DNA from: Flavobacteriia bacterium
GTDB taxonomy: Bacteria > Bacteroidota > Bacteroidia > Flavobacteriales_D > Crocinitomicaceae
DNA length: 64,000 nt
Assembly: GCA_016183815.1 (NCBI GenBank)
Contig: JACPDW010000007.1
Span: 62,001-126,000, forward strand
Direction of reading: 5' to 3'
The translations under genes were made by a program, and so were the position numbers. The notes beneath the pieces were generated by a model. It was not told the DNA's origin, did no database searches, and saw nothing but the letters and a program-made list of their open reading frames with translations. Shown one piece after another: positions 38,537 to 42,067 of this stretch; within the stretch, counting starts at the first letter, position 1, and every line of letters begins with the position of its first letter.

Positions 38537-38545
38537 ATTTTCAAC

Positions 38546-38564
38546 AACGTAAATTATTTACGTT
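38546..38564. repeat. Perfect 19-bp palindrome between dut and the restriction gene
   Basis: AACGTAAAT, a central T, ATTTACGTT: nine matched pairs on each side. As a hairpin it has seven pairs and a five-base loop, but no T-run follows, so it is a poor terminator and a better operator. It lies 50 bases before the restriction gene. Confidence 0.55.
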
Positions 38565-38614
38565 TCATTTATTGGAAATTTGTACTAACTTTAGTATGAT
38601 TTTGATTTGAAATT

Positions 38615-41600
38615 ATGAAAGAATTACAAGATTTGTTAAAAAAAATAGGTTTTCTACCAAAGGAAAATACTGATGGTATATATGAAAAAACATATTCTGG
38701 TTCTTATGTAATTTCAGTCGATTTTAAACAACAAAAAATTATTTACGGAAATAAAATAGTATCCGAAAGCAAAACAACTCAAAATTTTTCTCAAGCAGAA
38801 AACTTCGTCGTTTTAGAATGTGTGGATAGACTCTTACAAAAAGGTTATCTTCCTGAAAATATAATTCTTGAAAAAACATGGGCGGCAGGGCATGGAACTT
38901 CTGGCAGACTTGACATCTGTGTTACACGTGAAGATGGTTCTGAATACTTATTGATTGAATGTAAAACATTTGGAAAAGAGTTCGAAAAGGAATTCACCCG
39001 AATGAAAAAAGATGGTGGACAATTATTTACTTATTTTAAATTTAGTAATAAACCTGACATTATCATGCTTTATGCTTCTGAATTAAGAGCTAATGAAATC
39101 ATTTATCGAAATGAAATTGTAAAAATCGAAAATGATTATCGAATAGGAGATAAAGACGATTTTTACGAAAAATGGAACAAACTGACTAAAGACAATGGCG
39201 TTTTTGAAAACTGGGTAAATCCTTATAGTTTTGAAAGTAAAGCATTGACAATAAATGATTTAGAAGAAATTAGACAAGAAGACAGTAGTTTCATTTTCAA
39301 TCGTTTCCTTGAAATTCTTCGCCATAATGTTGTTTCAGATAAAGGAAATGCCTTTAATCGTATTTTCACTTTATTTCTTTGTAAAATCTACGATGAAAAA
39401 ATAAATGAAGGTACTGATAATGAGTTGGGGTTTCAATGGTTGGAAGGAATTGATGATCACAGAAGTTTTCAACTCCGATTAACCGACCTCTACAAAAGTG
39501 GAATGCATGAATTTTTAGAAAAAGTCGCTACTGATTTTTCAGAAACAGAGTTTAAAAATAGATTCCCGTTTTTATCTGAAGAGCAAAGAAATCCAATTTT
39601 AGAAGAGTTTAGAAAAATTAGATTAGAAAAAAATAATGAGTTCGCGATTAAAGATGTGTATGACGAACAATCATTTAACGAAAATGCTGTTGTTGTAAAA
39701 GAGATTGTTGAACTTTTACAAAAATTTAAACTGCGTTATACCAAAAAACAACAATATTTATCTGACTTTTTTGAATTATTACTTACAACGGGTTTAAAAC
39801 AAGAATCAGGACAATTTTTCACTCCTGTTCCTGTAGCACAATTCGTGATAAAAAGTTTACCAATTGATACTATTTTAGAAGAAAAATTATCTACCGCTAA
39901 AATAGATAATGACACGCTTTTACCGTACGTAATGGATTATGCAGCGGGGAGTGGTCATTTTTTGACAGAAACCATGCATGAAATGCAACGCCTAATTAAA
40001 CAAAAAGACGATAAAAAATATAATCCTAGCGTTGCTAAAAAAATAAGAAACTGGCAAGATGATCATTTTGCTTGGGCCATCCAATATGTTTATGGAATTG
40101 AAAAAGATTATCGTCTTGTTAAAGTAGGAAAAGTAGGTTGTTATTTACACGGTGATGGTTTGGCAAATGTGATTCATTCAGATGGTTTAGCTAGATTTAC
40201 TCATCCTGACTATAAAGGAAAATTATTACAAACCGACAAAGACTTTCCGACAGAAAACAAACAGTTTGACATCATTGTTTCCAACCCTCCATATTCGGTT
40301 TCTGCATTTAAAAATAATGCAAGGTCATTTTATAAAGAAGATCAGTTTGAACTTTACGATAAACTCACAGATAACAGTTCTGAAATTGAATGTTTGTTTA
40401 TAGAGCGAACAAAACAATTGCTAAAAGACAGAGGTGTTGCCGGGATAATACTGCCAAGTTCAATATTAAATGGAACATCCGTAATTTATGAGAAGACACG
40501 AGAACTTATCTTAAATTTTTTTGAAGTTATAGCAATCACAGAATTGGGCGGAGGAACATTTATGGCAACAAATACAAAAACTGTTACCTTATTTTTGAGA
40601 AGACGAAATAATTATGACAGTATTAATTTAAAAATTGCTATTGAGAAGTTATTTGCTTCTTTGCAAGATGTTACCTTGAATGGAATTGAGAAACCAATAG
40701 CTAAATATCTGAATCATGTTTGGGAAGGTGTTTCTTTTGAAAATTATCTTACTTTGCTCAAAAAAGAACCAAACAAAGCAATAACAGAACACGAAATTTA
40801 TACCGAATACCGAAAAAAGCTAAATGTAAAGAATGACAAAGAATTTTGGGCTATAGTATTTGAGCGAGAAGCAGAAAAGATTTTTTATTTCATTTTAGCA
40901 TATCCACAAAAAGTAGTTTTAGTGAAAAGTGGTGAAAAAGATGCAGAAAAGCGCTTTTTAGGCTATGAATTTTCGAATAGCCGAAGAAATGAAGGGATTC
41001 ATCCTATAAAAGGTAACAGTATTGAAGATTGTACAAGATTATTTGATTCGGAAAGATTTGATAATCCTAAAAAAGCAAGTACTTATATTTATAAAGCCTT
41101 TCAAGGAGATTTTGATTTTTCAATTGATGAATCTTTGTTGGAGAATGTTTCAAGGCATAATTTGGTAGACTTTTTTACTTTTGATAGAGTGAATTTCAAT
41201 AAAAATTTCACTTTATCAGCAAGGAAAAAAATTAAAATTGAAAGTAAATGGCCTATTTTTAAACTAAATCAACTCATCAATATTGTTAGGGGTGCTTCAC
41301 CGAGACCTATTAGAAACTACATAACGGATAATGCTGATGGAATAAATTGGATTAAAATAGGAGATGTTAAACCTGATTCGAAATTTATTACTGAAACAAA
41401 AGAAAAAATAACAATCCAAGGAGCGGAAAAATCACGTTTTGTTAGAAAAGGAGATTTTATTCTTTCTAATTCAATGAGTTTTGGTCGACCATATATTTTA
41501 GATATCGAAGGTTGTATTCATGATGGGTGGCTATTATTAAATAATTTTTCAAAAAATTTGAATAAAGATTATCTTTATTATATGCTTTCAAGTACCATGA

Positions 41601-41815
41601 TTCAAGATCAATTTACAAGCGCTGCAAGTGGAGGTACATCTGTTGACAACTTAAATATAGAAAAAGTTGCTTATACACAAATTCCTCTTCCAACCATTGA
41701 AATTCAGGAAAAATTAGTTCAAGAAATTATTGATTTAGAAAAAAAATCAAAAACAATTGTCATTAGAGATTTAGATATCCAAATTGAAAAAATAATTAAA
41801 AAATATCTTTTATGA
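38615..41815 (+). CDS. Single-chain restriction-modification enzyme: nuclease, N6-adenine methylase, target-recognition domain
   Basis: 1066 residues, type IIG/IIL-like plan. N-terminal HsdR-like nuclease (about 60-150) with a PD-(D/E)xK core: D100 in 'GRLDICV' and E115-C-K117 in 'LLIECKTFG'. A helical linker leads to a type I HsdM-like methylase: 'GQFFTPVPVAQFVI' (motif X), D441-YAAGSGHF (motif I) and NPPY at 557-560 (motif IV, which places it among N6-adenine enzymes). The C-terminus from about 880 is a single HsdS-like half (WPIFKLNQLINIVRGASPRP...GGTSVDNLNIEKVAYTQIPLP..EIQEKLVQEI), so recognition would be asymmetric. No helicase or translocase is present. All key residues look intact. Confidence 0.92.
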   Translation: MKELQDLLKKIGFLPKENTDGIYEKTYSGSYVISVDFKQQKIIYGNKIVSESKTTQNFSQAENFVVLECVDRLLQKGYLPENIILEKTWAAGHGTSGRLDICVTREDGSEYLLIECKTFGKEFEKEFTRMKKDGGQLFTYFKFSNKPDIIMLYASELRANEIIYRNEIVKIENDYRIGDKDDFYEKWNKLTKDNGVFENWVNPYSFESKALTINDLEEIRQEDSSFIFNRFLEILRHNVVSDKGNAFNRIFTLFLCKIYDEKINEGTDNELGFQWLEGIDDHRSFQLRLTDLYKSGMHEFLEKVATDFSETEFKNRFPFLSEEQRNPILEEFRKIRLEKNNEFAIKDVYDEQSFNENAVVVKEIVELLQKFKLRYTKKQQYLSDFFELLLTTGLKQESGQFFTPVPVAQFVIKSLPIDTILEEKLSTAKIDNDTLLPYVMDYAAGSGHFLTETMHEMQRLIKQKDDKKYNPSVAKKIRNWQDDHFAWAIQYVYGIEKDYRLVKVGKVGCYLHGDGLANVIHSDGLARFTHPDYKGKLLQTDKDFPTENKQFDIIVSNPPYSVSAFKNNARSFYKEDQFELYDKLTDNSSEIECLFIERTKQLLKDRGVAGIILPSSILNGTSVIYEKTRELILNFFEVIAITELGGGTFMATNTKTVTLFLRRRNNYDSINLKIAIEKLFASLQDVTLNGIEKPIAKYLNHVWEGVSFENYLTLLKKEPNKAITEHEIYTEYRKKLNVKNDKEFWAIVFEREAEKIFYFILAYPQKVVLVKSGEKDAEKRFLGYEFSNSRRNEGIHPIKGNSIEDCTRLFDSERFDNPKKASTYIYKAFQGDFDFSIDESLLENVSRHNLVDFFTFDRVNFNKNFTLSARKKIKIESKWPIFKLNQLINIVRGASPRPIRNYITDNADGINWIKIGDVKPDSKFITETKEKITIQGAEKSRFVRKGDFILSNSMSFGRPYILDIEGCIHDGWLLLNNFSKNLNKDYLYYMLSSTMIQDQFTSAASGGTSVDNLNIEKVAYTQIPLPTIEIQEKLVQEIIDLEKKSKTIVIRDLDIQIEKIIKKYLL

Positions 41816-42009
41816 ACCTCGTTCAATCTAAAATATTAAATGCTATTGAAACTAATAAACTCAACCCTCAAATTTTAGGAGAACGAAATTGGTACAGTTA
41901 TTTCATAAGAGTTAAAGAATTAGTTTGGTCTAGAAACTTACGTGATGGTTATTTAATAGAGGTATATGACGAAAAACATGGAAATCATTTAGCTACAATC
42001 ACACTTTAG
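41812..42009 (+). CDS. Small protein coupled to the restriction enzyme, unknown
   Basis: 65 residues, not recognised. Its ATG overlaps the TGA of the restriction gene (ATGA), so it is translated by coupling and belongs to the same module. It is basic and aromatic (KLNPQILGERNWYSYFIRVKELVWSRNLRDGYLIEVYDEKHGNH), no transmembrane helix, with a possible small beta fold at the C-terminus. It could be an inhibitor, a specificity helper or a remnant; nothing in the sequence decides this. Confidence 0.7.
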   Translation: MNLVQSKILNAIETNKLNPQILGERNWYSYFIRVKELVWSRNLRDGYLIEVYDEKHGNHLATITL

Positions 42010-42044
42010 GTTTTAAATCTCCATCATACCTCAACAAAAAGAAT

Positions 42045-42052
42045 TAATTTTG
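42045..42052 (+). promoter_or_regulatory. -7 box of the nucleotidyltransferase operon
   Basis: TAATTTTG, full TAnnTTTG match, 15 bases before the ATG at 42068. It indicates that the envelope operon has its own promoter behind the restriction module. No clear -33 TTG. Confidence 0.5.
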
Positions 42053-42067
42053 AAGAAATATTTATAA

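Follow-up and report, generated by a model that had tools for sequence, protein, structure and literature searches.

A single-chain restriction-modification enzyme with one target recognition domain, probably a halved relative of AloI/TstI-like type IIB enzymes, inserted behind dut in a Flavobacteriia bacterium

How does a restriction-modification (R-M) enzyme with a single target recognition domain (TRD) read and modify its site, if its close relatives use two? This question is raised by a locus in a stretch of 64,000 nucleotides from a Flavobacteriia bacterium (contig JACPDW010000007.1, positions 62,001 to 126,000; the whole stretch is called the window below), in which the gene of a single-chain enzyme of 1066 residues (38615..41815, plus strand, ATG start) is followed by an overlapping frame of 65 codons. 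Our data make it likely that the enzyme is a stand-alone R-M enzyme that was halved from a two-TRD ancestor similar to AloI and TstI and that would work as a homodimer on a palindromic bipartite site, with methylation of both strands. Enzymes of this general kind are already known; what is unusual is the halved form, which very probably descends from two-TRD ancestors.

The first link in the argument is the domain order of the chain. A PD-(D/E)xK nuclease core lies at residues 75-125 (38837..38989, plus strand), where the Pfam family HSDR_N_2 matches weakly (E = 0.00024; 21.6 bits, below the cut-off of 25) and where an alignment of 19 family sequences shows almost no variation at D100, E115 and K117. 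An N6-adenine methyltransferase follows at residues 379-666 (39749..40612, plus strand), matched by N6_Mtase over exactly these residues (E = 9.5e-23) and by Eco57I (E = 8.3e-16). Its motif I (D441-x-A-x-GSGHF) and motif IV (NPPY, residues 557-560) lie in stretches, 441-449 and 557-560, that are largely invariant in the same alignment, with D441, A443, G445 to F449 and N557-P-P-Y560 invariant. The third part is one HsdS-type TRD (residues 877-1043; 41243..41743, plus strand), seen as a single Methylase_S stretch (E = 3.1e-08). No helicase is among the eight Pfam families listed for the enzyme at E up to 1; a dynein AAA entry below threshold (E = 0.13) is regarded as a chance match. An earlier note on this DNA, made from the letters alone, had described a nuclease, an adenine methylase and one HsdS-like half in one frame without a helicase; Pfam and the alignment confirm this description, and the catalytic residues that it named are correct. 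The PADLOC model REase_MTase_IIG also matches the enzyme (E = 1.1e-208). A type I R-M system, with an HsdR motor and separate M and S subunits, does not describe the locus: there is a single chain, no helicase family is listed, and the neighboring genes encode a dUTPase and a nucleotidyltransferase. The AlphaFold2 model (mean predicted local distance difference test score [pLDDT], 71.9; predicted template modeling score [pTM], 0.56) has helices in the tail region at residues 1028-1047 and 1053-1065; it agrees with the predicted domain order and carries no information about quaternary structure.

The best solved relative of the enzyme is RM.BsaXI, a type IIB protein, by sequence (E = 1.2e-42) and by profile (E = 4e-63). 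It is also the best by fold (Foldseek E = 9.4e-26), though with a template modeling score of only 0.35-0.40, and the type IIG enzyme BpuSI (3s1s) is well behind it in Foldseek (E = 3e-10). Within the family, two Methylase_S stretches were found in 17 of the 18 relatives whose C-terminal parts were scanned with Pfam, and one stretch in the remaining relative, L060, as in the window enzyme. The two-TRD set consists of L002-L009, L011, L012, L014, L057, L058 and L061-L064. Left out of this count were L010 (gene truncated by the contig end), L065 and L067 (no frame could be recovered), L059 (frame broken in TRD1), L066 (938 residues, distant) and L072 (visible C terminus the same as that of L012, probably the same genome). 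The difference is also seen in length: 16 of the 17 two-TRD relatives have 1205-1266 residues (the range omits L007, whose N terminus is cut off by the contig start), compared to 1047 in L060 and 1066 in the window enzyme. Core identity (residues 150-868) between the window enzyme and two-TRD relatives reaches 84%, the value for the Flavobacterium shii gene in L002, and the seven closest kin, with core identities of 80-84%, all possess a TRD2.

Two side observations concern members outside the count. In L059 (1492-4146), the frame breaks within TRD1, and the rest of TRD1 plus the second TRD are found in the next open reading frame (ORF) of 286 residues; the break is a frameshift, an assembly error or a possible phase switch. 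L072 is one further family member, of the two-TRD form by eye, that came from a search of 120 relatives of the L060 genome with L060 as the query.

These kinships bear on the comparison with MmeI and the type IIL enzymes that the earlier note had drawn, along with modification of one strand. In this alternative, the window enzyme would be a type IIG/IIL enzyme on the MmeI plan, with one TRD, an asymmetric site and methylation of one strand. Indeed, nuclease, methylase and one recognition domain are united in a single chain in both. However, MmeI_Mtase stays below its cut-off on the window enzyme (E = 0.012; 15.2 bits versus 27), no other MmeI model is among the Pfam families listed for the enzyme at E up to 1, the TRD is of the HsdS type, two TRDs on the AloI/TstI plan are the rule in the scanned relatives, and BsaXI, with BpuSI far behind, is the best solved relative. 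Kinship thus lies elsewhere, and we consider this alternative unlikely. Modification of one strand also found no support; a single HsdS-type TRD rather predicts a homodimer, a palindromic site and methylation of both strands.

The TRD itself has a history different from that of the core. It is 13-24% identical to the first TRD of the two-TRD kin, but 47-54% identical to TRDs of plasmid-borne type I HsdS subunits, in which the matching TRD is C-terminal in the Salmonella and Escherichia coli plasmid examples and N-terminal in Picosynechococcus. Hence, with a conserved core and a TRD that diverges from the kin but resembles plasmid HsdS TRDs, the specificity part has been exchanged and the core kept. 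Over residues 878-1040 (41246..41734), the identity to the TRDs of these three examples is approximately 50%, and the Salmonella HsdS is encoded on a plasmid of a Salmonella Tennessee isolate. Motifs have been published for other Salmonella Tennessee strains (PMC9507087), and in the part of that publication available to us none is assigned to the matching HsdS; therefore, we claim no half-site for the window TRD. A target assignment for any of these HsdS TRDs could allow the half-site of the window enzyme to be predicted.

The chain ends in a short tail (residues 1037-1066; 41723..41812, plus strand), for which we propose a role as homodimerization helices and which takes the place of coil 1, TRD2 and coil 2 of the two-TRD relatives. 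It resembles the tail of L060. The window enzyme ends in EIIDLEKKSKTIVIRDLDIQIEKIIKKYL-L and L060 in EIDTLEDKAKTHVIADIDEQREKILKKYL, with 19 of 29 residues identical. No ungapped match of either tail within the C-terminal 400 residues of the 17 two-TRD proteins exceeded 12 of 29, and for the tail of the window enzyme the best was 10 of 29. BLASTP of the last 198 residues of the window enzyme against the last 195 of L060 gave an E value of 9e-10, to which the final 82 residues contributed the score, and the 45-residue tail of the window enzyme as the query retrieved the L060 tail at E = 4.5e-6. As a control, the same query in four genomes with two-TRD relatives gave only matches at E = 0.105-0.97. 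In 188 genomes of the class, it found the window alone and no further copy at E = 0.01, and searches of plasmids at E = 10 gave one match in one search and none in the other.

In the core phylogeny, the two one-TRD enzymes do not come out as sisters. In a tree of 720 core columns, the window enzyme lies inside a set of eight (support 100) whose other members are all of the two-TRD form, and L060 groups with two other two-TRD proteins (support 99). The one-TRD state takes two changes on this tree, and the starred branches force two as well. A clade of the window enzyme and L060 is rejected by the approximately unbiased (AU) test (p = 0.000155), and FastTree agrees in keeping the two separate. 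Judged from the sequences, either the halved form would have arisen twice, with converging tails, or a module of TRD plus tail would have moved between enzymes. A broader idea, which we put forward as a tentative possibility, is that a one-TRD "halving module" (a TRD plus a homodimerizing tail) took the place of the two-TRD module in AloI-like enzymes on at least two occasions, perhaps by domain exchange. An asymmetric enzyme (1RM:2TRD) would thereby become a symmetric one (1RM:1TRD), and natural matched pairs with cores that are 84% identical would result.

In our model, the ancestor was very probably a two-TRD type IIB enzyme of about 1250 residues, similar to AloI and TstI. In the lineage of the window enzyme, coil 1, TRD2 and coil 2 would have given way to the short helical tail, so that each chain kept a single TRD. 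The tails would then hold two chains together, with their identical TRDs in inverted orientation, and the site recognized by this dimer would be palindromic and bipartite, made of a half-site, a spacer and the reverse complement of the half-site. The dimer would methylate one adenine per half, on opposite strands, and would cleave DNA that lacks this modification at fixed distances beyond the recognition site, probably on either side of it. For type I and type IIB systems, a bipartite site is described as being read by a pair of inverted TRDs on helical coils (PMC3874165); a one-TRD chain would regain the symmetry by pairing with a second chain. A role of the enzyme in defense is presumed in the same way.

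The model has precedents among known systems. By their published descriptions, AloI, TstI and PpiI share with the window enzyme the order of nuclease, adenine methylase and HsdS-type module and have no motor; they differ from it in having two TRDs and about 1250 residues (PMC3874165 and PMC4027205 for AloI and TstI), compared to one TRD, 1066 residues and a different tail. Set beside the single-chain type IIB enzymes, the window enzyme thus has the domain make-up without a translocase, but neither the two TRDs nor the length. It does have the half-S plan, in which nuclease, methylase and one HsdS-type TRD lie in one chain (R~M~one TRD), and HaeIV is likened to it in this respect by description, not by sequence: HaeIV is listed in the review as R~M~[one TRD] with the symmetric site GAY N5 RTC, and a homodimer was suggested (PMC3874165). 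The RM part of BsaXI is the closest solved structure, as described above, but BsaXI itself has a separate two-TRD S subunit and is described as forming (RM)2S (PMC11997821). The same paper, from 2025, modeled 16 sequenced type IIB systems, three of them poorly; as stated there, all members of the single-chain group but one end in TRD1-CR1-TRD2-CR2, and the remaining one is likened to BpuSI and MmeI. A functional parallel comes from an engineered fusion of HsdM with a half HsdS of the type I system CC398-1, which was reported to dimerize and to methylate the palindromic ACC N5 GGT (PMC6158711). Like the window enzyme, the fusion joins a methylase to one TRD; in contrast to it, it is a laboratory construct and has no fused nuclease.

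Several points weigh against this model. Single-TRD enzymes on asymmetric sites do exist, namely type IIG enzymes such as MmeI, as described in the 2013 review (PMC3874165). The quaternary structure varies among the relatives, with (RM)2S reported for BsaXI (PMC11997821) and a tetramer for TstI, and therefore the oligomer cannot be read off from the kin. The structure model of the enzyme is weak where it matters (pLDDT below 50 at TRD residues 913-939), and the Methylase_S score of the window TRD is modest (34-40 bits). The core tree is of the quick kind, and L014 and L064 stand out in it as long rows. Besides the window enzyme, L060 was the only one-TRD form found, and the shared tail rests on two sequences. 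Finally, the end branch of the window enzyme is longer (0.14) than those of its nearest two-TRD neighbors (0.066-0.099). This last point, together with the presence of TRD2 in all of the seven closest kin, would also fit a decaying remnant, in which an accidental loss of TRD2 left an enzyme that is inactive or acts as a methylase only, and in which the 65-codon frame is leftover DNA. However, all 1066 codons of the enzyme frame are open, its codon use (0.235 per codon) is like that of genes, the catalytic residues are retained, and the C terminus is not ragged but resembles the end of the other one-TRD lineage, and we judge decay to be very unlikely.

The enzyme would be of use beyond this locus. 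How AloI-type enzymes work is "a mystery" in the words of the 2013 review, since a chain brings one catalytic part to two TRDs (PMC3874165). A one-TRD enzyme whose core is this close to that of two-TRD kin is a ready-made control for the role of the second TRD, and a comparison of the two would also show how one domain exchange can change the site of a restriction enzyme from asymmetric to symmetric.

The second question at this locus is whether the 65-codon frame (41812..42009, plus strand, ATG start) belongs to the enzyme. The bases confirm what the earlier note had seen at the junction: the stop of the enzyme gene and the start of the small frame read ...TTTATGAAC..., with an ATGA overlap. 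The frame is probably a real gene and likely translated, as judged from its composition. The chance that an ATG at this place stays open for 65 codons is 0.0037 under a base-transition model of the stretch. Its codon score of 0.231 per codon is close to that of 65-codon pieces of window genes (mean, 0.247; standard deviation, 0.124; n = 256) and exceeds 143 of 145 spurious frames (mean, -0.19), and its GC content by codon position (0.40/0.28/0.20) is near that of the other genes of the window (0.40/0.30/0.20). Being coding-like, it might encode a dedicated partner of the enzyme (an inhibitor, a dimer or specificity factor, or a guard), translated by coupling; the ATGA overlap, the gene-like codon use and the location of both genes within the same inserted segment speak for this. 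That the small protein is part of the system had been supposed in the earlier note.

The searches speak against it. Among 22 genomes with relatives of the enzyme, the small protein had one chance-level match (E = 0.093), inside a frame of 341 codons, and tblastn on up to 900 bases downstream of 20 relatives, L060 included, gave a best E value of 1.7 (L059, one of the 20, says little since its frame is broken). The protein found itself alone at E = 0.01 in 240 genomes of the host family, and neither phage nor plasmid records yielded a match at E = 10. A sample of 399 genomes of the order gave 28 other matches, all at E = 0.011-0.1 and about as many as expected by chance, and none was confirmed in viral contigs, in a search that reaches close relatives only. 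There was no family match, none in PHROGs, and a best E value of 1.1 in a sequence search of the PDB. Hence, the small protein is, as far as these sequences tell, not a general component or conserved partner in the enzyme family, and the supposition that it is part of the system did not hold up, by the very result that the earlier note had named as its refutation; we consider a dedicated partner quite unlikely. It may be a strain-specific gene, and it was probably inserted together with the enzyme or arose in place. A single-sequence structure model (pLDDT, 68; pTM, 0.44) gave as its top structural match 7u66_G, Gp1.2 of T7, with a Z score of 3.5 and many tied rows, and a fold family was not assigned. 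A 47-residue ORF in L062 (5259 onward) starts at the last base of the stop of the two-TRD gene; it has no likeness to the 65-residue protein by eye, and the tblastn matches of that protein in L062 (E of 1.7 or worse) lie elsewhere.

How did the pair get there? The segment from the end of the dUTPase gene (38536) to the start of the nucleotidyltransferase gene (42068), 38537..42067, is absent from all four sister genomes of the same genus. In each of these, the nucleotidyltransferase gene comes directly after the dUTPase gene, and the aligned ends lie 17-71 bases apart, counting the dut stop. Therefore, the pair is an insertion in the species of the window (less simply, it was lost in four), as the earlier note had proposed from the apparent interruption of an operon. 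The flanking genes are identified by matches to dUTPase (E = 2e-34) and NTP_transferase (E = 7.1e-28) and are followed by genes with TPR, DUF4292 and Peptidase_M23 domains. There is no clear target duplication: the longest direct repeat between the junctions has 9 bp (AAAGAATTA, at 38618 and 42038), the longest inverted repeat between the junction stretches has 10 bp, and both are taken as chance in AT-rich DNA. No integrase is encoded among the six neighboring genes scanned, and none was searched for further off. The GC content of the insert is similar to that of the surroundings and gives no signal of foreign DNA.

One scan of bacterial and archaeal species genomes found 11 relatives of the enzyme that are 59-76% identical over the best segment. 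These 11 loci are from Bacteroidota, Campylobacterota (two Sulfuricurvum records) and one Caenarcaniphilales record, and several are metagenome-assembled genomes (MAGs). Relatives were present in 2 of 149 genomes at E = 1e-60 and, at E = 1e-100, in 5 of 395 genomes of the class and 9 of 395 of the phylum, with the own genome counted in each. With so few genomes carrying relatives, the family is rare. The cores of the two Sulfuricurvum relatives (L006 and L009) are 72.5% and 83.1% identical to that of the window enzyme, and their presence in Campylobacterota MAG records points to cross-phylum transfer or mis-binning. The host genome itself has HsdS-type domains on four other contigs, with two matches each, in open frames of 441 (C19), 414 (C14), 327 (C11) and 463 residues (C29), and therefore the host probably has several restriction systems.

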